Part shown: piece after piece, positions 556 through 11,459 of the stretch
Position numbering within the stretch: the first letter of the stretch is position 1
How the letters are laid out: each line of letters begins with the position of its first letter
Source: Salipiger bermudensis HTCC2601
GTDB taxonomy: Bacteria; Pseudomonadota; Alphaproteobacteria; Rhodobacterales; Rhodobacteraceae
DNA: 64,000 bases
Assembly: GCF_000153725.1 (NCBI RefSeq)
Contig: NZ_DS022277.1
Location: 633,415 to 697,414 of the forward strand
Direction of reading: 5' to 3'
Notes under the pieces: generated by a model
The model's input: the letters and a program-made list of their open reading frames with translations, nothing else
Database searches by the model: none
What the model was told of the DNA's origin: nothing
Program-made: the position numbers and the translations under genes

Positions 556-1347
556 TCATCGCAGCTGCAGAAGCTGCGCCGCGCGGTGGGTGTCATAGAT
601 CCGCTGGATGTATCGGCCTGTGGGGCGCTGGCGCAGGGGCTTGTAGATCTCCTGCATGAAGACCGGGCAGCGCGCCTCGAGCGGCAGCATGCCGTGATAC
701 CCCTGCGCGAGCACCATCGGCGCCAGCGAGGCGGCGGTGGCGAGATCGGCGAAGGTCAGCGTCTCGCCCACCAGGTAGCGCCGCCCGTCGGAGAGCCTCG
801 CGTCGAGCCTGTCGAAGCCGGCGTGGATGGTCTCGAGCGCGCTGTCGGCGACGCTCTGATCGAGTTTCAGCCCCTTGTACATCAGGCTGCGGATCACCGG
901 GAAGGCGAGGCGCAGAGTAAGGGTTTCGTACCAAGGCACCCCGGTGGTCAGAGACGGCCAGACCACGGGCTTGTATTTCAGCAGGTTCCAGTAGGACCAC
1001 TGCACCACCGCGGTGCCGATGCCGAAACGTGCGTCGTGCTGCAGCGTGTCGACCTCCTTCCAGCGTTCGGGCTCGACCATCTTGTCGGGCCAGAGCCGTT
1101 TGTTGGGCGCGGCCTTCGGCTCGAGCTGGTCGAGGATGGTCTGGATGCCCGCCGATTTCGTTCCGCGATCGGCCGAGACCAGCAGCGGGTAGCCCTCCGC
1201 GCTCACGCCCCAGCTCTTCAGGGCCAGCACGTGAAAGATCGGCGCGTGGGGTCGCTCGCGATAGCTCACCCCGTAATGGCTCAGAAGCCAGCGCCCGAGA
1301 TCGACATCGGTGGAGGGCAGCAGGGTCACGAGCAGGGGCTGGGACAT
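556..1347 (-). CDS. Glutathione S-transferase-like protein
   Basis: 263 residues. The C-terminal half carries the GST helical-domain pattern LVGETLTFADLA (192-203), with the N-capping box and hydrophobic staple typical of the family. The N-terminal part fits a divergent thioredoxin-like domain, but no canonical catalytic Ser or Cys motif stands out and the domain is unusually rich in aromatic residues. ATG start at 1347, preceded by GAAGG. It is the last gene of the five-gene minus-strand operon, 9 bases after the P450 stop. A role in conjugating or isomerising a product of the peroxidase/P450 pair is inferred from context only. Assignment to the GST fold is good; the substrate is unknown. 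Confidence 0.75.
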   Translation of the reverse strand: MSQPLLVTLLPSTDVDLGRWLLSHYGVSYRERPHAPIFHVLALKSWGVSAEGYPLLVSADRGTKSAGIQTILDQLEPKAAPNKRLWPDKMVEPERWKEVDTLQHDARFGIGTAVVQWSYWNLLKYKPVVWPSLTTGVPWYETLTLRLAFPVIRSLMYKGLKLDQSVADSALETIHAGFDRLDARLSDGRRYLVGETLTFADLATAASLAPMVLAQGYHGMLPLEARCPVFMQEIYKPLRQRPTGRYIQRIYDTHRAAQLLQLR

Positions 1348-1356
1348 GGCGGACCT

Positions 1357-2703
1357 TCAGTCGTAGAGCAGGTGGAAGTGCTGCGGATGCGGGGTGCCGC
1401 CGGTGTCGATCTGCCCGGCGGGCCCCTCGGCGCGGCGCAGGTTGGGCTGGGCGATGAGCGGTTTCAGGATCGCCGGGATCACCGCCTTGTTGATTGCCGC
1501 CCCAAAGCAGGTGTGCATGCCGTAGCCCCAGATGATGTAGTCCTCCCAAGGGCGGTCGGTGCGGAAGCTGTTCGGGTCGGAAATGCGGTAGCGGTCGAAC
1601 ATCGCCGAGAGGGTGGCGGCAAAGACGATCTGGCCCTTGCGGATCTTCGCCTCGCGCAGCGTCGAGCGCGCCACCACCGTGTCGTGCAAGGCGCGGCGAT
1701 AGATCACCGGGTTGTGCGGGTTGAAGCGTAGCGCCTCCCAGATGAACTGCTCGAAGACCGGATCGTTCGATCGCGCAGCACGCTGCGCCGCCGCCAGCTC
1801 CTCGGGACGGTTCAGAAGCTCGTCGAGGGCGAGGCAGCAGGCCTTGGAGATCGTGGGGATCGCCCCGATCAGCAGCCCCAGCAGGTTGTTGCGGATGCCG
1901 AGATCATCCATCCCCGGCGTGCCAGCGCCCTGCAGTGCGAGGCAGCGGTTGAGGATCTGCGGCCGATCATCGGGGGCGGCCTTGCGGTCGGCGATGGCAC
2001 TGTCGAGATAGTCGCGCAGCCCCGCGGCACAGCGCATCGCGCGGGTGTCGAGCTCTGGATCGGCGGGCAGGTCCTCGAACAGGTACCAGAACAGGACGGT
2101 GGTCCAGTCCTGCATGGTCTCGCGCTCTCCTCCGACACCGAAATAGGTGTCGGTCATGTCCCACGGCACCTGCAGGAACAGTTCGGGCACCGCGTCGATG
2201 CGACCGCCGGCGCCGGTGACGATCTCGTCGGCCAGCTGTGCCGCGCGCGGCAGTACCACCTCGGCCACATCCGGGCGGCGCGCGGCGAGGCGCATGGCCG
2301 AAGTGTCGCGGGTGTAGTCCCAGCCGGGCTGCATTCCGAGGAAGAAGTTTTCGCCCCCGGTCAGCTTGCGCATGCGCGGGCCGTAGACGACCTCGAAATC
2401 GGCGTTGCGGTTGAGCACGTCGATGCAATCCTCGTGGCGGGTAACAACGGAGGTACCGGTGTTGTCATAGGCCTTCATCAGCACCGCCTTGAGCGACAGG
2501 TTGGGCCAGAAGGCGCGCAGCACCGCGAAACCCTTCTCCTGCGTGGCGGCGGCGGTGAAGAACGGCGCCAGCGCCGCCTTGCCGCCCTTTGCGAAGACGC
2601 CGGCCCCCTTTGCGATCAGCCATACCAGCGCCGCCAGCCCCTCGGCCATCACCATGACGAAGCGGGCGAGGGTGGTGAGACATCCTTTCAGCCGTGCCAG
2701 CAT
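1357..2703 (-). CDS. Cytochrome P450 with an altered I-helix motif
   Basis: 448 residues from the ATG at 2703 (a TTG just upstream is also in frame). The heme loop is WGYGMHTCFG with the thiolate Cys399, and the K-helix ExxR motif is EALR (323-326). The N-terminus has a hydrophobic stretch (about 13-37) that may attach it to the membrane. In the I-helix the usual (A/G)Gx(D/E)T is GAIPT (280-284): the acid is replaced by Pro283 while Thr284 stays. P450s lacking the acid-alcohol pair (the CYP152 peroxygenases, allene oxide synthases, hydroperoxide lyases) often use peroxides instead of O2 and a reductase. No ferredoxin or reductase gene is next to it, while a heme peroxidase gene is 10 bases upstream. 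The family call is secure; peroxide use is inference. Confidence 0.9.
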   Translation of the reverse strand: MLARLKGCLTTLARFVMVMAEGLAALVWLIAKGAGVFAKGGKAALAPFFTAAATQEKGFAVLRAFWPNLSLKAVLMKAYDNTGTSVVTRHEDCIDVLNRNADFEVVYGPRMRKLTGGENFFLGMQPGWDYTRDTSAMRLAARRPDVAEVVLPRAAQLADEIVTGAGGRIDAVPELFLQVPWDMTDTYFGVGGERETMQDWTTVLFWYLFEDLPADPELDTRAMRCAAGLRDYLDSAIADRKAAPDDRPQILNRCLALQGAGTPGMDDLGIRNNLLGLLIGAIPTISKACCLALDELLNRPEELAAAQRAARSNDPVFEQFIWEALRFNPHNPVIYRRALHDTVVARSTLREAKIRKGQIVFAATLSAMFDRYRISDPNSFRTDRPWEDYIIWGYGMHTCFGAAINKAVIPAILKPLIAQPNLRRAEGPAGQIDTGGTPHPQHFHLLYD

Positions 2704-2713
2704 CAAAGCGCCC

Positions 2714-4423
2714 TCACGTCGGATCGACGATGCCCATCGCGATCATCCGCAGAGCGATCATCGAGGGCACGAAGAAATAGTCGCCGCCGCGGCATTCCAC
2801 GAAGGTCTTGAGCCGCGTCATCATGTAGGGCGGCTTGCCGCTCTTCGGGTCCGACGGGATCATGTGGCGGGTGTGGTGGTCGTGGCGGCCCAGCATCGGG
2901 CAGGTGTTGTTGCCCTGGTGAAAGTCGAGCCCGTACTGGATCCATTGCTGCTGCACGAACTCGAACTGCCGGAACAGGTCGACCCCCATCACCATCATGA
3001 TCACCCCCTGTTCCGAGGCGTCGTCGCGGGGCTCGAAATTCGGCGGCCCGTAGGGCAGGCCGCGGCGCAGCACCCGGCGGCGCTTGTTGAGGGCATGGGT
3101 GGCCTTGGGGTTCTCGAATTGCTTGCCGGTCTCGGGATCGATGCCGAACTGGTTCAGCGGATCGAGGTAATCGCGGGTGTTCATCCGCCGCATATGCGCG
3201 CCGCCGGGGCACTTGAAGCCCGCCATGTCGTCGGCATAGCGGAAATCCGAGGCCGCGGGGCTGCGGATATAGGCGAGGTTCTTCTCCCAGGCGAGCGGGG
3301 TCTTCAGCATGGCCCCCGTGTCGTCGCGCCAGCCGAGCTTTGTCCCGAGGGCGATCCAGTCGTCGTAGCCGGGCACCACCGCCAGAGGCACGCCGTCCGA
3401 CCAGCGGCCGCACATCTTGGCAAGGATGGTCTCCTTGGCCTGCGGCAGGTCCACGCCCATGGTCTCGGCGTACTGCGCTGCCTCGGCGTCGACCACCTCG
3501 TGGAAGCTCGCGACGTTCTCGTGCAGCTTGCGGTAGGCCATGAAGGTGCCGTTCTGCATGAATTCTGGCGGCATCGCAGTGGGCGGCAGCTCCTGGCTTT
3601 CGCCGGGATTGCCGAGGATGAACTCGCCCGGTTCCAGCGGCTCCCAGTCGCCGCCCATGCGCTTGCCACGGCCGATCAGCGCTGTCTTCTCCTTTTCAGG
3701 CGGGTACTGGCCCTTGAAGACCGGATCGCCGATGCCGTCGGTGAAGCCGAAATGCTCGCGCGCGGTGGGCAGGGCGAGACCCTCGAAATCGTCGAACACC
3801 GCCGAAGCCGCCTGGTAGGGCTGATCGCCGGCCTTGCCATTGGCCTCGATCAACTCGACACCGCTGCCGGTGAGCGATTTCAGCCACGCGGTCTTGGCCT
3901 CGAGCTCCGGGTGCGGCTGTTTGAGCCGCGCCAGCCCCTCCGGCGTCTCGGGGTCGGCGCCGCCGAGATCGGGCTGGGCGTTGAGGGTGACGAGGATATG
4001 CACGTCCTCGGCGCCGCCCTTGCCCTCCTTGCGGTTGCCCTGCCAGATCGGATCCCAGTCGCGGTCCCAGTCGGGATCGTCATCGGCGGTCTTGGTCGGG
4101 TCCCGGTCGCCCAGCATGGAGGCGCGGCTGCGCATGCCGGAGATGAACACGTCGGGCATGCCCTGAAGCGTCCGGTCCGGCACCTCGAGCCAGTAGAGCC
4201 CCATGAAGGTGAAGGCGATGTTGACGGTGCACTCGGGCTTGTCGGCCTCCTCCGGCCAGCGCGCCGAGGTGGTCACCTGCTTGCGCACCGCATCGACGAA
4301 GGCGCGCCCGGCGGCGGGGTTGCGGATGCGGAAGAACAGGTAGCGCGCGAAAGGGAAGGAGAAGCGCCCGTAGGCGCGGGTGACGTTGCCCTGGATGTCG
4401 TGCAGGTTCAGCTGATCGGCCAT
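2714..4423 (-). CDS. DyP-type heme peroxidase
   Basis: 569 residues from the ATG at 4423, which has GGGAGGGGGAGT directly upstream; an in-frame codon 14 residues earlier has no such site. The DyP signature GFTDG (226-230, catalytic Asp229), the proximal-ligand region CPGGAHMRRMN (His410) and the RRG segment (453-455) are all present. At 569 residues it is longer than compact bacterial DyPs and fits the larger class. There is no signal peptide and no twin-arginine motif, so a cytoplasmic or membrane-associated location is likely. It is the third gene of a tight operon between two unknown proteins and a P450. The reaction would be peroxide-dependent oxidation of an organic substrate, possibly a lipid or hydroperoxide; the true substrate cannot be read from sequence. 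Confidence 0.9.
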   Translation of the reverse strand: MADQLNLHDIQGNVTRAYGRFSFPFARYLFFRIRNPAAGRAFVDAVRKQVTTSARWPEEADKPECTVNIAFTFMGLYWLEVPDRTLQGMPDVFISGMRSRASMLGDRDPTKTADDDPDWDRDWDPIWQGNRKEGKGGAEDVHILVTLNAQPDLGGADPETPEGLARLKQPHPELEAKTAWLKSLTGSGVELIEANGKAGDQPYQAASAVFDDFEGLALPTAREHFGFTDGIGDPVFKGQYPPEKEKTALIGRGKRMGGDWEPLEPGEFILGNPGESQELPPTAMPPEFMQNGTFMAYRKLHENVASFHEVVDAEAAQYAETMGVDLPQAKETILAKMCGRWSDGVPLAVVPGYDDWIALGTKLGWRDDTGAMLKTPLAWEKNLAYIRSPAASDFRYADDMAGFKCPGGAHMRRMNTRDYLDPLNQFGIDPETGKQFENPKATHALNKRRRVLRRGLPYGPPNFEPRDDASEQGVIMMVMGVDLFRQFEFVQQQWIQYGLDFHQGNNTCPMLGRHDHHTRHMIPSDPKSGKPPYMMTRLKTFVECRGGDYFFVPSMIALRMIAMGIVDPT

Positions 4424-4436
4424 GACTCCCCCTCCC

Positions 4437-5450
4437 TTACAAACCGGCGCGCGGCTGCGGCGCACTGTCCGAGATCACGCCCGGCTGCTGTGTCGGTCCG
4501 GAGACGTCGCCCGGCGCGTGCCGTTTCAGGAAATCGCCGAAAGCCGCCTGCAACGCCTCGGGCCGGGCGTGCTGGTTGGCGGCGATGAAATCGGCAAAGG
4601 CCTGCTGGGTGTAGAGCGCCTTGAGCACGGTCGGCAGGTCATCATGGCTCGCCGGGGGCAGCGGTTTGGCCCCGTTCGCGAGCGCGAAGCGTACCGAGAT
4701 CAGGAACGCCAGCGCCGTGAGCGCCAGCGCCACCAGTGCGAGCCCCAGCGTGTTCATGCCAAGCACATGGATCACCCCGAAGATCCGCAGCACCAGTGCT
4801 GCCAGCGCCACGACCGCCGGGATGCCCACGGCGGCGATCAGCCCCTTCAGCGGCAGCGTGTTGAAGGCCGGGAGCGAGAGGTAATAATCGTGGTAGGGCA
4901 TCGTCGTCTCGACATGGCAGCGCTCGAGATAGGCGCCGAACGCGGCGCCGCTGTCGGTGCCGTCGAAGCCGTGGCAATTGTCGAAGATCGCCTTGATCTC
5001 CTCTCCCATCGTCTCCCAGAGTGTCTGGGCATAGGCCAGCCGCACCTTGCGCTGCTCCTCCGGGCCGAGGTTCGAGGGAAGGGGATCGCCCTCCTTCGCG
5101 ATGGCGTCGATATCGGCGGTGAAGACGAGATAGGCCGAGCGCAGTCGGTCGACCTTGCCCGGGACGATGGTGTTGACGCCCTTCACCGTGGCCACCAGCG
5201 CATCCTGCGCGCTGCGGCCGTTGTAGACCACGTCATCAAGGACGAACATGCGGGCGAAGTGATTGCGGCTGTTGCGGGCAAAGGGCGCGGCGAACTTGGT
5301 CTTTTGCGTCGCGGGGGTCTGGTGCGCCGGGGGCAGGCGGGCAAGCTCGATGCGCACCTTCTGCTTGTAAGAGACATCGCCATGCGGTCCGCCGCGCCGG
5401 ATCGGGATCAGGTAGGTCAGAAAAAGGTGTCCGGTGTCGAGATCTGCCAT
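4437..5450 (-). CDS. Uncharacterised HFAR-motif protein with two membrane segments
   Basis: 337 residues from the ATG at 5450; the frame continues further upstream but only as antisense of the preceding gene. The stop of the upstream gene is one base away, so the two are translationally coupled. Residues 64-71 read HFARMFVL and 106-115 read AYLVFTADID, a pair of motifs also found at similar places in the preceding gene's product. Two strongly hydrophobic segments (about 202-226 and 228-255) form a hairpin near the middle, followed by a soluble helical tail ending in a Pro/Gln-rich stretch. I do not recognise a named family. The HFAR...LVF pattern could be one ferredoxin-like domain related to DyP halves, and the protein could anchor the peroxidase or P450 at the membrane; both are inferences. 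Confidence 0.7.
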   Translation of the reverse strand: MADLDTGHLFLTYLIPIRRGGPHGDVSYKQKVRIELARLPPAHQTPATQKTKFAAPFARNSRNHFARMFVLDDVVYNGRSAQDALVATVKGVNTIVPGKVDRLRSAYLVFTADIDAIAKEGDPLPSNLGPEEQRKVRLAYAQTLWETMGEEIKAIFDNCHGFDGTDSGAAFGAYLERCHVETTMPYHDYYLSLPAFNTLPLKGLIAAVGIPAVVALAALVLRIFGVIHVLGMNTLGLALVALALTALAFLISVRFALANGAKPLPPASHDDLPTVLKALYTQQAFADFIAANQHARPEALQAAFGDFLKRHAPGDVSGPTQQPGVISDSAPQPRAGL

Positions 5451-5451
5451 G

Positions 5452-6123
5452 TCATGCCCCCCGCTTGGCGGTGAAACACGCCTGTGCTGCTTCGACATAG
5501 GCCAACCGGTTGACGTCGGCGCGCTCGGTGTCGAGGCTGGCGACCGGTCCGAACCCGGGATCGCCGAGATCGTTCTGGATCTCGAGATAGGCGGCGTTGA
5601 ACGCCTTGGCGAAGGCCTCGGGCGTGTCCTTGCCATGGGCCTCGGCGAGGCTGAGCACCTGGTCATAGACCTTGAGCGCCGACTTGATGTCGCGCTGCGC
5701 CGAGCCGGGCGTGGCGTTGTAGTAATAGTCGGTGCCGATCTGGTTGTAGGTGATGTAATCCTTGAACGGCGTGATCGGGATCGAGAGCGGGTACTTGCTG
5801 GCGGAGTACCAGAACAGGTTGAGACCGTTCGGGATGCCGTCGGAAAAGGCGTCGATATACTGGTCCCAGGTGCCGTTGAAATTCGAGCAGAACAGCATGT
5901 AGTCGTTGTCGAGGCTCTCCTTGCCCTGACCGAGATCGGGCCACTGGTCGCGCTTGACGATGACCCATCGGGCGAAGTGGATGAGAGACAGTCCAAGCAG
6001 ACCCATCAGGTTCGAGGGCAGGCCGCGCGCCGCCATGAAGAGCAATCGGTTGATCCAGGTGACGGCCGGGCGACTGGGGGTCACCACGTTCATCGCATAG
6101 GCTTTTCCCGCGACGTTCGACAT
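5452..6123 (-). CDS. Uncharacterised HFAR-motif protein, first gene of the peroxidase/P450 operon
   Basis: 223 residues from the ATG at 6123, chosen because GGAGGG sits just upstream; an in-frame codon 21 residues earlier lacks one. It contains HFARWVIV (49-56), then YMLFCSNFNG (75-84), an aromatic-rich block around 100-140 (DYITYNQIG, TDYYYNATPG), and a helical tail. The 36-48 region is hydrophobic but no clear signal peptide is seen. The same HFAR and LxF(C/T)xxxx pattern occurs in the next gene, so the two may be distant paralogs. I recognise no named family with confidence. The likely operon promoter lies in the AT-rich 6130-6200 region, which includes a TTACGTAA palindrome at 6152-6159. 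Confidence 0.7.
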   Translation of the reverse strand: MSNVAGKAYAMNVVTPSRPAVTWINRLLFMAARGLPSNLMGLLGLSLIHFARWVIVKRDQWPDLGQGKESLDNDYMLFCSNFNGTWDQYIDAFSDGIPNGLNLFWYSASKYPLSIPITPFKDYITYNQIGTDYYYNATPGSAQRDIKSALKVYDQVLSLAEAHGKDTPEAFAKAFNAAYLEIQNDLGDPGFGPVASLDTERADVNRLAYVEAAQACFTAKRGA

Positions 6124-6508
6124 GGGGGCCCTCCAATGGTTTGGGTGTAATTTACGTAAGGTCAAATCACCTATAGAGTGTATCAAGACGCAACGGGTCG
6201 CCTTGAGTCAAAGGATATTTTTCGCGGCGGCGCAGCAATGCGGCACCGGCTTGGTGGACTCCAAATCGCTTGTCGGGCGTGATTTCAGTAAGTCCGTGGC
6301 CGTTTGGGCAGGCGTCTCGGCCTCGGCGGCGGACCGGCAAGATCTTGTCAAATAGATATATTTATGCGCAGGCCCGTGCGTGAGAGGGGTCGTGCGGCCA
6401 CGCGGCGCGGGTCTTTGACCTGGTGCTTTGCGGCGAGCGTTCGTGGCGGCTAGGCTGGAGCGCAGAGATCCCGCGCAGATCGCCGGGGCACAGGCAAGGA
6501 CCGTCCGC
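6124..6508. other. Intergenic stretch with no recognisable gene
   Basis: It carries the divergent upstream regions of the minus-strand peroxidase operon and of the small plus-strand lipoprotein gene. The first 80 bases are AT-rich and hold TTACGTAA (6152-6159), a possible operator. Open frames here are short, lack good ribosome binding sites and have no recognisable product. Confidence 0.5.
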
Positions 6509-6848: not shown

Positions 6849-7334
6849 ATGCCGACTCTCGCCGACCGCCTTCTCGATCCGTCCGGAGGCCAGCTCCCGC
6901 AAGAGCTGCGCATCCTGTTCGGGCATTTCGTGCTGTCACACGCGCTCGACGAGCAGATGGATCACTGCCAGGTGGCCAGCGCGCTGACCAAGCCCGAGCG
7001 CAAGCTGATGATGCATCTGGGCGTGCCGCGCCGCATGGGCCAGCTTGCCGAGGACCTGAACACCCAGCCCTCGACGGTGACGGCGGTGGCCGACCAGCTC
7101 GAGGCCAAGGCAATGGTGCTGCGTGAACGCGACCCCGACGACCGGCGCGCCTGGCAGCTTCGCCTGACCGAGGCAGGGCAGGAGGCGCGAAGCGATCTGA
7201 TCGAGCGGATCGTTGCGCAGTTCCGCGAGCTCTCCGGCCTGAGCCCCGACGAAATGACCCAGCTCGCCACGCTGATGGACCGCGTGGCTGAACGTATCCT
7301 GCAGAACGGACTGCCGAAGGGATTTACCCTATGA
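6849..7334 (+). CDS. MarR-family transcriptional regulator
   Basis: 161 residues from the ATG at 6849, preceded by a GGAAAGGGGA-type binding site; the frame is open further upstream but without a supported start. The winged helix-turn-helix is visible: MGQLAEDLNTQPSTVTAV, then a wing with RDPDDRRAWQLRLTEAG. It is the first gene of a marR-adaptor-RND operon, and its stop overlaps the next start by 4 bases (ATGA). It probably represses the operon through the tandem GAAATATTTC-type sites upstream and is released by a small aromatic or lipophilic ligand. The ligand is not predictable from sequence. Confidence 0.88.
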   Translation: MPTLADRLLDPSGGQLPQELRILFGHFVLSHALDEQMDHCQVASALTKPERKLMMHLGVPRRMGQLAEDLNTQPSTVTAVADQLEAKAMVLRERDPDDRRAWQLRLTEAGQEARSDLIERIVAQFRELSGLSPDEMTQLATLMDRVAERILQNGLPKGFTL

Positions 7335-8398
7335 CCATCTTCTCCCGGTTCCCCCTCGCCGCCGCCGCGGTGACGATGATCCTCGCCTCGTCGCAGGCAG
7401 CGCTCGCCCAGACCGAGCCGCAGCCCTCGCTGCGCCCGGTGAAGCTCGCCGTGGTCGAGGCCGGTACGCAGGAGCTCACCCGCCAGTTCTTCGGCAAGGT
7501 GGTGGCGCGACGCACGGTGGATCTCGCCTTTCAGGTGGGTGGCCAGATCGAGCGCTTCCCTGTCGTCGAAGGCAGTTCCATCGAGCAGGGCGCGCTGATC
7601 GCGCAGCTCGACCTTCGCCCGTTCCAGCTTTCGCTTGATCAGGCGCAGCTGCAGAAGGAGCAGGCCGACCGCAATCTCGAGCGCCTCAACAAGTTGCGCG
7701 GCAGCACGGTCAGCGAGTCGGCTCTCGACGATGCCGAAACCCAGTCCGGGCTGACCCGGATCTCCGTCGACAACGCACAGATCGCGCTCGACGATGCGAC
7801 GCTTTACGCGCCGTTCGACGCGCTCGTCGCCTCGCGCATGGTCGAGAACTACACCACGATCTCGGCCGGCACGCCGGTGGTGCGCCTGCATGACATGTCC
7901 GAGATCCGGGTCGAGATCGACGTGCCCGAGGTGCTGATCCAGAAGGCCGACGTGGCCGACGATGTGAGCGTGCTGGCGCGCTTCCCATCCTCGCCCGAAA
8001 CGTACCAGATGACCGTGCGCGAGCTGAATGCCGAGACCTCGGCGATCGGGCAGACCTATCGCGCCACCTTCGGCATGGCCCCGCCAGAGGGGCTCGACGT
8101 TCTGCCGGGCTCGTCGGTGACGGTGATCGCGAAACTGAGCCGCGGCGAGCCGCGCATCGAGATCCCGGCGGCAGCGGTGCAGATCGCCTCGGACGGATCC
8201 ACCTTCGTGTTCCGCTTCGACCCGAAGGGCGCCGCAGAGGGTACGCTCACGCGGCTGCCTGTGACGGTCGAGCCGACCGACGATGGCGGCGTGGCGGTGA
8301 TCGAGGGGCTGCAATCGGGCGACGAGATCGTCGTCGCCGGGGTCAGTGACCTTACCGACGGCATGAAGGCGCGCCGCTTCGTCGGCTTCGGCGAGTGA
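7331..8398 (+). CDS. RND efflux periplasmic adaptor (HlyD/MFP family)
   Basis: 355 residues with a Sec signal peptide (cleavage near AALA-QTEP). The order is the usual one: a beta-barrel/lipoyl entry around 50-80 (VDLAFQVGGQIERFPV), a short alpha-hairpin at about 98-140 with a QAQLQKEQADRNLERL helix, the lipoyl return LYAPFDALV, and a membrane-proximal domain to the end. It links the inner-membrane pump to an outer-membrane channel. Its start overlaps the marR stop and it is followed 10 bases later by the pump gene. No TolC-like gene is in the operon, so a channel encoded elsewhere must be used. Confidence 0.9.
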   Translation: MTIFSRFPLAAAAVTMILASSQAALAQTEPQPSLRPVKLAVVEAGTQELTRQFFGKVVARRTVDLAFQVGGQIERFPVVEGSSIEQGALIAQLDLRPFQLSLDQAQLQKEQADRNLERLNKLRGSTVSESALDDAETQSGLTRISVDNAQIALDDATLYAPFDALVASRMVENYTTISAGTPVVRLHDMSEIRVEIDVPEVLIQKADVADDVSVLARFPSSPETYQMTVRELNAETSAIGQTYRATFGMAPPEGLDVLPGSSVTVIAKLSRGEPRIEIPAAAVQIASDGSTFVFRFDPKGAAEGTLTRLPVTVEPTDDGGVAVIEGLQSGDEIVVAGVSDLTDGMKARRFVGFGE

Positions 8399-8408
8399 GG
8401 GCAGGGGT

Positions 8409-11400
8409 ATGACCACCATTGCACGCGGCTCGATCGAGCGGCCGATCTACACGTGGATCCTGATCCTCATCCTGTTCTTCGGCGGCATCTGGGGGTTCTT
8501 CTCCATCGGCCGTCTCGAAGACCCGGCCTTCACCATCAAGAACGCCGTCATCGTCACCCAGTATCCCGGCGCCTCGGCCGAGCAGGTGGCGACGGAGGTC
8601 TCGGAGCCGCTGGAATCCGAGATCCAGAAGATGGGCGAGCTGAAGACCATCACCTCGGTCAACCGCCCCGGCGTCTCGACCATCGAGGTCGAGATCAAGT
8701 CGACCTATGACGGCACCGAGCTGCCGCAGATCTGGACCGACCTGCGCAACCGGGTGGGCGATGCGCGGCTGCCCTCGGGCGCCGGTGCGCCTTACGTCAA
8801 CGACAGCTTCGGAGACGTCTACGGCCTGTTCTATGCCATCACGGCCGATGGTTTTTCGGATGCCGAGAAGCACCGGCTGGCGATCTTCCTGCGCCGCGAG
8901 TTGCTCGCGGTGGACGGGGTGGCCGATGTCGAGACCGCGGGCCTGCCCGACGAGGCGATCTTCGTCGAGCCCGACATCGCCCGCGCGGTCAACCAGAACA
9001 TCCCGCCCACAGCGCTGGCCTCGGCAATCTCGGAGGCCGACAGCGTCTCGCAAGCCGGCACGCTCGAGCGCGACGGCTCGCGCACGGTGATCCAGCGCCC
9101 TCAGGGCGAGGACACGGTCTCGGCCATCGCCGGGCTCACGGTGGGCGTGCAGGGCGAGATCATCAACCTGATCGACCTCGCCGAGGTCTATCGCGGGCGG
9201 CAGGACAACCCCGATCTGATCATCCGGCAGAATGGCCACGAGGCCTTTACCCTCGGGGTCGCGGGTCTGTCCTCGGAGAACATCGTCGAGGTCGGCGAAC
9301 GGGTCGACGCCAAGCTCGCCGAGCTCGACAAGGACATTCCGCTCGGCGTCGAGATCACGCCGATCTACCAGCAGCACGTGGTGGTGGACGAGGCGTCGAA
9401 CGCCTTCCTGCTCAACCTTGCCACCTCGGTCGCCATCGTGGTCGTCGTGCTGGCGCTGGCGATGGGCTGGCGCGCGGCGGTTGTGGTGGGCGCGACGCTG
9501 CTGCTGACCGTGATCGGGACGGTGTTCTTCATGGCGATCTTCTCGATCGAGATGGAGCGCATCTCGCTCGGGGCGCTGATCATCGCCATGGGGATGCTGG
9601 TCGACAACGCCATCGTGGTGGCCGAGGGCATGCAGGTCTCTATGCTGCACGGCAAGCGCGGCCCGGCGGCGGCGGACGAGGCGACGAAGAAGACACAGGT
9701 GCCGCTGCTCGGCGCCACGGTGATCGGCATCATGGCCTTTGCCGGGATCGGAACGAGCCCCGACGCTACCGGCGAGTTCCTGTTCTCGCTCTTCGCGGTC
9801 ATCGGCATGTCGCTGATGCTGTCGTGGATCCTCGCCATCACGGTGACGCCCTATCTTGGCAACAAGCTCTTCGTGACCAAGGACGAAGGCGATCACGATG
9901 CCTATGGCGGGTTTTTCTTCCGCCTGTTCGGGCGCACGCTCGACCTCGCGCTGCGGCTGCGCTGGCTGGTCGTGGTGGGGCTGATCGCGCTGACGGCGGT
10001 GTGTTTCAACGCCTTCGCCAAGCTGCCGCAGCAGTTCTTCCCCGACAGCAACACGCCGCTGTTCTTCGTGCACTACAAGCTGCCGCAGGGCGCCTCGATC
10101 GCGAAGACCTCTGAGGATCTGAAGGTGCTCGAGGGCTGGCTCGCGGAGCGTGACGAGGTGGTCGCGACGACCACCTTCGTGGGACAGGGTGCGACGCGCT
10201 TCATGCTGACCTATCAGGCCGAGAAGGCGAACCCGTCCTACGGCCACATCATCGTGCGCACCGCCACGCTCGACGAGATCCCGCAGCTCAAGTCCGATCT
10301 TGACGCCTTCGGCGCCGAGGCCTTGCCGCAGGGCGAGATGCGCACCAAGCGGCTGGTCTTCGGCCCCGGTGGCGGCGATCCGGTGGCGGCGCGGTTCTCC
10401 GGGCCCGACCCGGAGGTGCTGCGCAACCTTGCCATCGAGGCGCAGGCGGTGATGAAAGAGGCCAGCGACAAGATCACCACCACCCGTACCGATTGGCGCG
10501 AACAGGAGTTGGTGCTGCGCCCGCGCTACGCCACCGACCGGGCGCAGGCGGCGGGGATCAGCCGCGACGACGTCTCGAAGACCCTGCTGACGGCCACCGA
10601 CGGCACGCAGGCGGGCACCTATCGCGAGGGCGAGCGCCTGATCCCGATCCTCGTGCGCGAGGATCCCGACAGCGATCTGACCCTGATGGACCAGGTGATC
10701 TATTCCAGCGCGGCGGAATCCTTCGTGCCCATCGAGCAGGTGGTCGACGGCTTCGAGTTCATCCCCGAGAACACGCTTGTGCATCGCCGCGACCGCGTGC
10801 TGACCATCACCGTGGGCGCCGACATCGTCGACGGCGTGACCGCCGCAACGGCCTTTGGCGAGGTGCGCGGCGCGGTCGAGGCGATGGAGTTGCCGCTGGG
10901 CTACAAGCTCGAATGGGGCGGCGACTACGAGAGCTCGAGCGAGGCGCAGGCGGCGCTCGGGACCCAGCTTCCGGTCAGCTTCCTGATCATGGTGCTGATC
11001 TCGATCCTGCTGTTCAACGCGCTGCGCCAGCCGCTGATCATCTGGCTGCTTGTCCCGATGTCGGTCAACGGCGTGGTGCTGGGGCTTGGCCTTACCGGGC
11101 TGCCGTTCAGCTTTACCGCGCTGCTCGGCCTGCTGTCGCTGTCGGGGATGCTGATCAAGAACGGCATCGTGCTGGTCGAGGAAATCGACCTGCTGCGCGA
11201 AGATGGCGAGGCGCTGCGCCCGGCGATCATCCGGGCCTCCACATCGCGCCTGCGCCCGGTGGTGCTGGCGGCGGCGACGACGATCCTCGGCATGGCGCCG
11301 CTGCTGGGAGACGCGTTCTTCGTGTCGATGGCGGTGACGATCATGGGCGGTCTGGCCTTCGCCACCGTGCTGACGCTGGTGGCTGCCCCGGTGCTCTACT

Positions 11401-11459
11401 ACATCTTCTTCCGAAGGGAAGAGCGCCGCAACGTGGCGGCGCGCGAGGCAACCGCCTGA
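8409..11459 (+). CDS. RND efflux transporter permease (HAE-1-like)
   Basis: 1016 residues, the usual size for this family. The N-terminus has the entry motif of a first membrane helix (WILILILFFGGIWGF), followed by large periplasmic loops and the fourth-helix relay motif GMLVDNAIVVAEG with the proton-coupling Asp. The second half repeats the plan and has LSGMLIKNGIVLVEEI in the tenth helix. It exports drugs or lipophilic compounds by proton antiport. Overall it resembles the single-adaptor environmental RND pumps more than AcrB. It is the last gene of the marR operon and ends just before a strong hairpin. Confidence 0.92.
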   Translation: MTTIARGSIERPIYTWILILILFFGGIWGFFSIGRLEDPAFTIKNAVIVTQYPGASAEQVATEVSEPLESEIQKMGELKTITSVNRPGVSTIEVEIKSTYDGTELPQIWTDLRNRVGDARLPSGAGAPYVNDSFGDVYGLFYAITADGFSDAEKHRLAIFLRRELLAVDGVADVETAGLPDEAIFVEPDIARAVNQNIPPTALASAISEADSVSQAGTLERDGSRTVIQRPQGEDTVSAIAGLTVGVQGEIINLIDLAEVYRGRQDNPDLIIRQNGHEAFTLGVAGLSSENIVEVGERVDAKLAELDKDIPLGVEITPIYQQHVVVDEASNAFLLNLATSVAIVVVVLALAMGWRAAVVVGATLLLTVIGTVFFMAIFSIEMERISLGALIIAMGMLVDNAIVVAEGMQVSMLHGKRGPAAADEATKKTQVPLLGATVIGIMAFAGIGTSPDATGEFLFSLFAVIGMSLMLSWILAITVTPYLGNKLFVTKDEGDHDAYGGFFFRLFGRTLDLALRLRWLVVVGLIALTAVCFNAFAKLPQQFFPDSNTPLFFVHYKLPQGASIAKTSEDLKVLEGWLAERDEVVATTTFVGQGATRFMLTYQAEKANPSYGHIIVRTATLDEIPQLKSDLDAFGAEALPQGEMRTKRLVFGPGGGDPVAARFSGPDPEVLRNLAIEAQAVMKEASDKITTTRTDWREQELVLRPRYATDRAQAAGISRDDVSKTLLTATDGTQAGTYREGERLIPILVREDPDSDLTLMDQVIYSSAAESFVPIEQVVDGFEFIPENTLVHRRDRVLTITVGADIVDGVTAATAFGEVRGAVEAMELPLGYKLEWGGDYESSSEAQAALGTQLPVSFLIMVLISILLFNALRQPLIIWLLVPMSVNGVVLGLGLTGLPFSFTALLGLLSLSGMLIKNGIVLVEEIDLLREDGEALRPAIIRASTSRLRPVVLAAATTILGMAPLLGDAFFVSMAVTIMGGLAFATVLTLVAAPVLYYIFFRREERRNVAAREATA

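Follow-up and report, generated by a model that had tools for sequence, protein, structure and literature searches.

The window, a stretch of 64,000 nt of the forward strand of Salipiger bermudensis HTCC2601 (GCF_000153725.1, NZ_DS022277.1 positions 633,415-697,414), carries a group of five genes, here named A to E, which are read from the minus strand in the order A-B-C-D-E between positions 6123 and 556. Translation yielded five complete open reading frames without internal stops, separated by gaps of 1, 13, 10 and 9 bases, in agreement with the sequence-only reading of this DNA as five tightly packed same-strand genes for a DyP peroxidase, a P450, a GST-like protein and two HFAR-motif proteins. 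Gene A (5452..6123, 223 aa) specifies an HFAR-domain protein, and gene B (4437..5450, 337 aa) a protein with a second HFAR domain, then a membrane hairpin of two helices (approximately residues 201-260) and two further helices. Gene C (2714..4423, 569 aa) encodes a DyP-type heme peroxidase, gene D (1357..2703, 448 aa) a cytochrome P450 with a hydrophobic N-terminal stretch, and gene E (556..1347, 263 aa) a GST-like protein, an optional member in which both GST_C_2 and GST_C score above the Pfam cut-off. A common promoter 5' of A was looked for, and the candidate was not convincing.

The HFAR motif reads IHFARW in A and NHFARM in B. In profile comparisons, A aligned with the HFAR domain found in distant proteins and in fusions at an hhalign probability of 99.3, and B with the HFAR domain at 88.7; the two proteins, earlier called unknown, are members of one domain family. 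No match to this family was found in Pfam, NCBIfam or the PDB: protein A had none in the two family libraries and 0 in a PDB sequence-profile search, and B had only weak, unrelated ones, including four PDB sequence-profile matches at chance level. The HFAR domain is a putative scaffold domain that is undescribed in the family libraries searched. A Dirigent identity of B was dismissed, as the Pfam match lay far below the cut-off (E 0.0095). The structure model of A was poor (pLDDT 63.7), and that of B (pLDDT 88.0) matched no PDB fold at E<=0.001. By hydropathy analysis, 65 of 75 B homologues have two or more hydrophobic segments, and at one locus (L076) A and B lie within one frame.

In protein C, DyP_N was matched at 36.4 bits (Pfam cut-off 27.5), and TIGR01413 at 66.8 bits, below its cut-off of 100.5. 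The distal Asp of the GXXDG motif, the distal Arg and the proximal His are intact in C, as they are in all 88 aligned sequences, of which C is one. Protein D scored 47.4 bits against Pfam p450 (cut-off 22.8), and its heme-thiolate ligand Cys399 and the ExxR residues E323 and R326 are invariant in 37 close P450s. The acid of the I-helix is missing from all 37 of these sequences, in which Pro283 is invariant (GAIPT in D), and from all 21 distant P450s, where its place is taken by Pro in 20 and by Ala in one; the close and distant sets overlap, at least one locus (L166/L015) being counted in both as L166 is probably L015. The D family thus lacks the acid-alcohol pair [AG]Gx[DE]T of O2-activating P450 monooxygenases, which was present in 30 of 30 control P450s, although these PF00067 loci, drawn from 21 relatives mostly of one genus, are biased to typical P450s and represent many copies of few types. 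The best NCBIfam matches of D, all far below cut-off, were secondary-metabolism P450s, and none of the best 60 of 99 PDB matches was a CYP74 by name.

The earlier observation that no ferredoxin lies beside the P450 held for the Fer2 type within the window, as the 18 Fer2 matches of the genome all lie elsewhere; at C5:162662 the genome holds a further P450 match, and there a Fer2 match (C5:162509) lies at a distance of 152 bases. Loss of the acid, together with the absence of a Fer2 gene from the window, fits peroxide use by D. It does not, however, amount to proof, since P450nor, from which the acid is also missing, uses NADH, and since the close D family retains the I-helix Thr.

Co-occurrence of the genes, proposed earlier as a check, was assessed in the best 80 of 250 matches to A, so that the following counts describe close relatives, a locus being assessable where its contig reaches far enough for the gene in question. 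In this set B adjoins A in 76/76 assessable loci, C is present in 74/74, D in 53/70 and E in 26/68. At least A-B was found in 79 of the 80 kept loci, A-B-C in 76, A-B-C-D in 55 and A-B-C-D-E in 26, on a single strand, with median gaps of 4 to 13 bases and with no gene order other than A-B-C-D-E. The genes accordingly do travel together, A-B-C in 74/74 assessable loci; the proposed five-gene set stands as to order and linkage, but its core is A-B-C only, the P450 being optional and the GST rarer still. A complete A-B-C-D-E was also present in a far relative (L102), with A, C, D and E at 33-50% identity and part of B at 25%, and this, together with the fixed order in 80 related loci, indicates that the operon is more than a chance assembly. 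Since 17 of the 70 assessable loci have no D beside C, the DyP core must be able to work without an adjacent P450. Where D is missing, no shared gene was seen in its place after C; a strong family P450 was detected elsewhere in 4 of 19 such genomes, as a stand-alone gene in Azospirillum and within a frame of ~1,440 residues in three Mesorhizobium. Beyond A-E, with shadow ORFs (other reading frames of the A-E genes) set aside, neighbour families were common to at most 8 of these best 80 loci. Among 398 sampled genomes, 16 were matched by the A profile.

A distant set of 43 loci was assembled from phylum-sample genomes, hand-picked plasmid matches (18 of 45 records from one match list, and both records of another, one of which is also H22) and one P450-only locus (L097). 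DyP lies on the same strand as HFAR in all 42 distant HFAR loci scanned, and the partner of these HFAR-DyP modules is a related P450 in 20, a catalase-family protein in 14, neither in 8 and both in none; L169-L174 were classed by annotation alone, the P450 of L160 has a weak family score (44 bits), "neither" means little for L154 and L155 on their short contigs, and some of the loci scored with the catalase and DyP profiles had also gone into building them. Within the phylum sample, the 27 positive genomes comprised 16 with a P450, 7 with a catalase-family protein and 4 with neither. Ten of the 20 distant loci of P450 type (Mesorhizobium and others) have P450, HFAR and DyP in one open frame of at least 1,440 residues, the fused protein of L096 measuring 1,441, and at L163 DyP and a catalase-like protein share one frame of 911 codons. 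Alignment of the catalase-family partners identified the proximal R-x3-Y-x6-R in 10/10, placing them in the catalase superfamily, although of nine scanned against Pfam Catalase two were above the cut-off, one (L145) at it (25.0 of 25), two below and four unmatched. Their distal pair is Ala-His in 7/10 and Val-His in 1/10, and lacks the His in 2/10.

Among known systems, one close likeness is to the dioxygenase-P450 fusions of fungi (linoleate diol synthases, Ppo; DOX-AOS, DOX-EAS), which, like the bacterial fusions, combine a heme peroxidase-type domain and a self-sufficient P450 in each polypeptide. The fungal peroxidase is, however, of the cyclooxygenase type and N-terminal to the P450, whereas the bacterial one is a DyP, C-terminal to the P450 and separated from it by two HFAR-type regions and hydrophobic segments, which sets the bacterial proteins outside the DOX-CYP group; the bacterial system is, moreover, mostly encoded by split genes, the window's DyP among them. 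SRS4 of fungal 9S-DOX-AOS has a Pro near the Thr, as (V/A)PxT (PMC13049297), while the Pro-Thr here occurs in GAIPT or GFVPT, with different spacing. In the CYP152 peroxygenases, which are peroxide-using P450s, the acid-alcohol pair is likewise disturbed and a Pro stands in the I-helix, but as Arg-Pro; the D family has Pro-Thr (or Pro-Gln), none of its 21 distant and 37 close sequences carries an Arg ahead of the Pro, and it is thus distinct from CYP152. CYP152s are not known to be tied to a DyP. The catalase-related allene oxide synthases and hydroperoxide lyases of corals and cyanobacteria likewise employ a catalase-fold heme protein where a P450 stands elsewhere, but their partner is a lipoxygenase rather than a DyP; a distal Thr-His, reportedly the hallmark of fatty-acid-hydroperoxide catalases, occurs in 0/10 of the catalase-family partners, which separates them from these enzymes and counts against the lipid reading. 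Deinococcus radiodurans (L144) has an HFAR gene directly upstream of DyP and catalase-family genes, probably DRA0145-DRA0146, with the catalase-family protein in the place of the P450. The EfeUOB iron-uptake operon also places a DyP in a conserved membrane-linked operon, but it serves iron transport and no P450 is named in the portion of the source consulted (PMC8197335).

Evidence for a lipid link comes from gene neighbourhoods. Fatty-acid genes (oleate hydratase, 3-hydroxyacyl-CoA dehydrogenase, thioesterase or phospholipase) lie near catalase-type modules in 7/13 annotated plasmid stretches, a count that includes related plasmids (three Sphingomonas), and none was present among 100 features of two control stretches. 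At P450-type loci, oleate hydratase, patatin and thioesterase had no match in the close set (best 80 of 250), 3-hydroxyacyl-CoA dehydrogenase only weak ones at L001 and L036, and all four kinds were absent from four annotated P450-type plasmid stretches. The lipid clue is therefore borrowed from the catalase-type sister branch, and the evidence for a lipid substrate in the P450 branch is indirect. A lipoxygenase search gave no match in the S. bermudensis genome, nor in the control genomes, so that the negative carries no weight. Elsewhere among organisms, proteins of both the P450 and the catalase fold are known to take fatty-acid hydroperoxides as substrates (PMC10813956).

The co-conservation of these genes, the P450-HFAR-DyP fusion, the intact heme residues of both enzymes, the acid loss in the P450 and its exchange for a catalase-family protein are best explained, in our judgement with evenly balanced confidence, by one membrane-associated, peroxide-driven two-heme oxidation system that would most likely take unsaturated fatty acids or the corresponding hydroperoxides as substrates, or possibly an isoprenoid; the system probably acts on fatty-acyl or similar chains. 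In such a complex, which may also form in S. bermudensis, A and B would contribute two copies of the HFAR domain and B would anchor the assembly by its membrane hairpin. With a peroxide as oxidant, the DyP would act on a hydrophobic molecule bound within the complex; the P450 would then rearrange, cleave or oxygenate the resulting (hydro)peroxide, or use peroxide directly, and would need neither NAD(P)H nor ferredoxin nor O2 activation. Where a GST-like protein is present, it may handle the electrophilic product. A more tentative extension is that HFAR-DyP modules are a widespread and hitherto undescribed class of bacterial oxylipin-type synthases, in which a scaffold family brings together a DyP, as producer or activator of a lipid hydroperoxide, and an exchangeable second heme enzyme, which may be a catalase-family protein or a self-sufficient P450, the peroxidase-P450 pairing having been reached independently of fungi and animals. 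In fungi and animals, lipid mediators are known products of peroxidase-P450 pairs, and a bacterial counterpart with a different peroxidase would represent an independent solution to this chemistry, with a P450 exchangeable for a catalase-family protein on a scaffold domain new to the libraries searched. It would also be a source of self-sufficient, membrane-bound P450s needing peroxide alone, and could explain catalase-family proteins reported without catalase activity, such as DRA0146. No paper on the HFAR-DyP-P450 system was found in the open-access literature searched.

It is conceivable, though we favour it much less, that the complex clears membrane lipid hydroperoxides and reactive products as an oxidative-stress defence instead of making signals, with the DyP as a reducing peroxidase, the P450 as a hydroperoxide lyase or isomerase and the GST acting on aldehydes. 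The GST in 26/68 assessable loci (best 80 of 250), Fur and KatG genes near the Granulicella A-B-C, and TetR and efflux genes near catalase-type modules are consistent with such a role, as is the increase of DRA0145 and DRA0146 of D. radiodurans after UVC and vacuum described in one report (PMC5731708). The scattered distribution (16/398 genomes by the A profile) and the recurrence of other neighbours in at most 8/80 loci (best 80 of 250) are, however, unlike a housekeeping stress defence, and DRA0146 is stated to be without catalase activity in one source (PMC7247583) but to be a weaker H2O2 scavenger in another (PMC7143949).

A role in tailoring a small molecule other than a lipid, be it aromatic, isoprenoid or peptide and with or without peroxide as driver, appears unlikely: DyPs are known to act on aromatic dyes and carotenoids (PMC8197335), a module lies beside a tyrosinase at L151 and beside a RoxA-like cytochrome at L154 (single loci), and the far-below-cut-off NCBIfam matches of D are to secondary-metabolism P450s, yet none of the recurrent cassette neighbours was recognised as a scaffold-building gene, and a fusion that includes a membrane hairpin points to a hydrophobic substrate carried in the membrane. 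That D is a conventional P450 supplied by a ferredoxin encoded elsewhere, in a loose collection of oxidative enzymes, would suit the 18 Fer2 matches outside the window and the other P450s of the genome; we consider it improbable, given that the O2-activating acid is missing in every family sequence examined (37 and 21), that P450, HFAR and DyP are fused and that the gene order is fixed. A defence reading suggested by the neighbours of L142 (endonuclease, CHAT and restriction genes) was set aside as it concerns a single locus. Across 129 loci, RoxA-like, di-heme and tyrosinase neighbours were observed at one locus each.

Five open reading frames lie consecutively on the minus strand of the window, namely A (6123-5452), B (5450-4437), the DyP-type peroxidase C (4423-2714), the P450 D (2703-1357) and the GST-like protein E (1347-556), separated by gaps of 1, 13, 10 and 9 bases, respectively, which bears out the tightly packed peroxidase, P450 and GST-like set with two unknown proteins described in the sequence-only reading. 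A and B, which carry the HFAR motif (IHFARW and NHFARM, respectively), gave no family match above cut-off in a Pfam/NCBIfam search. The reported lack of a ferredoxin in this P450 operon holds for the Fer2 type, as the window contains no Fer2 match; a different P450 match of the same 5.48-Mb genome has one 152 bases away. Divergent from A are a MarR-like regulator (6849-7334), an RND adaptor (7331-8398) and an RND pump (8409-11459), all named by sequence reading rather than family search. Among 129 related loci, the MarR gene found no match, and the pump and adaptor have counterparts only in L021. Sequence immediately upstream of A (CTTTGAC...TTGATACA, window 6124-6210) is common to locus L001 and, in part, to L002, L003 and L008.

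Co-occurrence of the five genes, the check proposed for this set, was assessed among relatives of A: a contig scan returned 250, and the best 80 were searched by tblastn with all five proteins and tallied. Among these best 80 of 250 loci, the closest is from Salipiger bermudensis (95% identity in A), and B, C, D and E are present in 79, 76, 55 and 26 of 80, respectively (76/76, 74/74, 53/70 and 26/68 where the downstream contig suffices). The proposed co-occurrence was confirmed in a single order: A (1 locus), AB (3), ABC (21), ABCD (29) and ABCDE (26) were the only arrangements, the genes always sharing one strand and the median spacing being 4 to 13 bases. Across the five proteins, pairwise distances are correlated (r 0.65 to 0.93), in part through mere shared ancestry. 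The cassette looks like a self-standing unit, since any other flanking gene family recurs in at most 8 of the 80 loci. The complete A-B-C-D-E set also occurs in the far relative L102, and the A-B-C trio on an Acidobacteriota plasmid.

A P450 profile was run over the whole genomes of the 19 loci lacking D, and in three Mesorhizobium genomes the family P450 sits within an open frame some 1,440 residues long. In one of these (L096), and in L098, a single frame comprises the P450, a B-like stretch containing hydrophobic segments, HFAR and a C-terminal DyP; this fusion is strong evidence that the separately encoded proteins belong to a single system. Of the 20 P450-type distant loci, 10 carry P450, HFAR and DyP within a single frame (L096, L098, L139, L141, L143, L153, L156, L157, L158 and L162). 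Directly upstream of the fused gene, six of these ten carry an adenylate/guanylate cyclase-like gene (L096:8366-10240, L098:1958-2539, L139:3082-3600, L153:3712-4278, L156:11405-11980 and L157:3836-4396), as identified by tblastn with the L096 protein and also by Pfam for L096 and annotation for L139; in L141 and L143 its place is taken by a TPR protein. An HFAR-DyP fusion (L142:6197-9127) was observed on a conjugative Rhizobium leguminosarum plasmid, neighboured by CHAT-domain, nuclease and restriction-modification genes.

Alignment of 37 family P450s revealed invariant Cys399, E323 and R326, with Pro283 standing in place of the conserved acid and followed by an invariant Thr284. The acid is present in none of 21 distant family P450s (Pro in 20, Ala in one), the adjacent residue being Thr in 17, Gln in three and Val in one, while [AG]Gx[DE]T was found in 30/30 control P450s from relatives, these being many copies of few types. 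The DyP Asp, Arg and His are retained in 88/88 proteins, B shows two or more hydrophobic segments in 65/75 and D a hydrophobic N-terminus in 33/52. We infer that the proteins form a membrane-bound complex whose two heme enzymes would both work without a reductase. Self-sufficiency is described for fungal DOX-P450 fusions, some of which carry a Pro close to the Thr in SRS4 (PMC13049297). The suggested kinship to such fungal heme-peroxidase/P450 fusions stands as a likeness in working but not as membership: in our reading the system would operate like fungal DOX-P450 and lipoxygenase-AOS pairs, yet it belongs to neither, because its peroxidase fold, domain order and tested distal motif differ. 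The main text of a DyP review nowhere mentions P450, fusion or fatty acid (PMC8197335); within the open-access literature, where absence is not proven, no report of a DyP-P450 fusion was found, nor did a broader search of it find a title or abstract on an HFAR-DyP-P450 system.

The HFAR domain defines a protein family, the profiles of A and B matching the HFAR domain of distant proteins with hhalign probabilities of 99.3 and 88.7, respectively. Six profiles were scanned over 43 distant loci; HFAR occurs in 42, each with a same-strand DyP within the stretch (42/42), and L097 is a P450 alone. The partner in these 42 loci is a P450 in 20, a catalase-family protein in 14, neither within the stretch in eight and both in none. 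HFAR matches occur in 27 of 398 sampled genomes of the phylum, the window's genome among the 27, with a P450 in 16, a catalase-family protein in seven and neither in four. The catalase profile found no match in the 80 close loci. Annotated catalase-type modules stem from Deinococcus, Rhodococcus, Acinetobacter, Paracoccus, Haematobacter, Sphingomonas, Agrobacterium, Shinella, Microvirga, Ketogulonicigenium and Rhizobium, and in L163 one open frame of 911 codons encodes both DyP and a catalase-like protein. The partner in L144 is taken to be DRA0146 of D. radiodurans, which is reported to lack catalase activity (PMC7247583) but is elsewhere ranked a weaker H2O2 scavenger than KatE1 (PMC7143949).

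Fatty-acid hydroperoxides are described as substrates of both CYP74-clan P450s and catalase-related proteins (PMC10813956). Among 13 annotated catalase-type stretches (L138, L144, L145, L146, L148, L149, L150 and L169-L174), seven (L144, L149, L150, L169, L170, L172 and L173) contain a lipid-type gene, counted as oleate hydratase, 3-hydroxyacyl-CoA dehydrogenase, acyl-CoA thioesterase/thioesterase-family or patatin-like phospholipase; in L152 the module adjoins an oleate hydratase homologue. None of these genes occurs in the two control stretches of 49 kb (100 annotated features) taken from two of the plasmids; one stretch has a catalase-family gene with no HFAR or DyP annotation beside it. 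Counting against this neighbourhood clue, oleate hydratase, patatin and thioesterase have no match in the 80 close P450-type loci, 3-hydroxyacyl-CoA dehydrogenase has weak matches in L001 and L036 only, and four annotated P450-type plasmid stretches contain none of the counted genes.

In L154, an HFAR-DyP pair with no P450 or catalase-like partner within its short contig is directly followed downstream by a gene for a di-heme cytochrome c of RoxA-like type (PF21419; 4385-5779), a possible dioxygenase partner. A tyrosinase gene (PF00264; L151:5558-6373) lies upstream of another HFAR-DyP pair, in a stretch with no P450. The row at L099:274-9029 encodes a protein of 803 residues that contains two CxxCH motifs, a GMC oxidoreductase that might supply H2O2, a 147-residue unknown protein, a tandem HFAR protein, DyP and a catalase-like protein.
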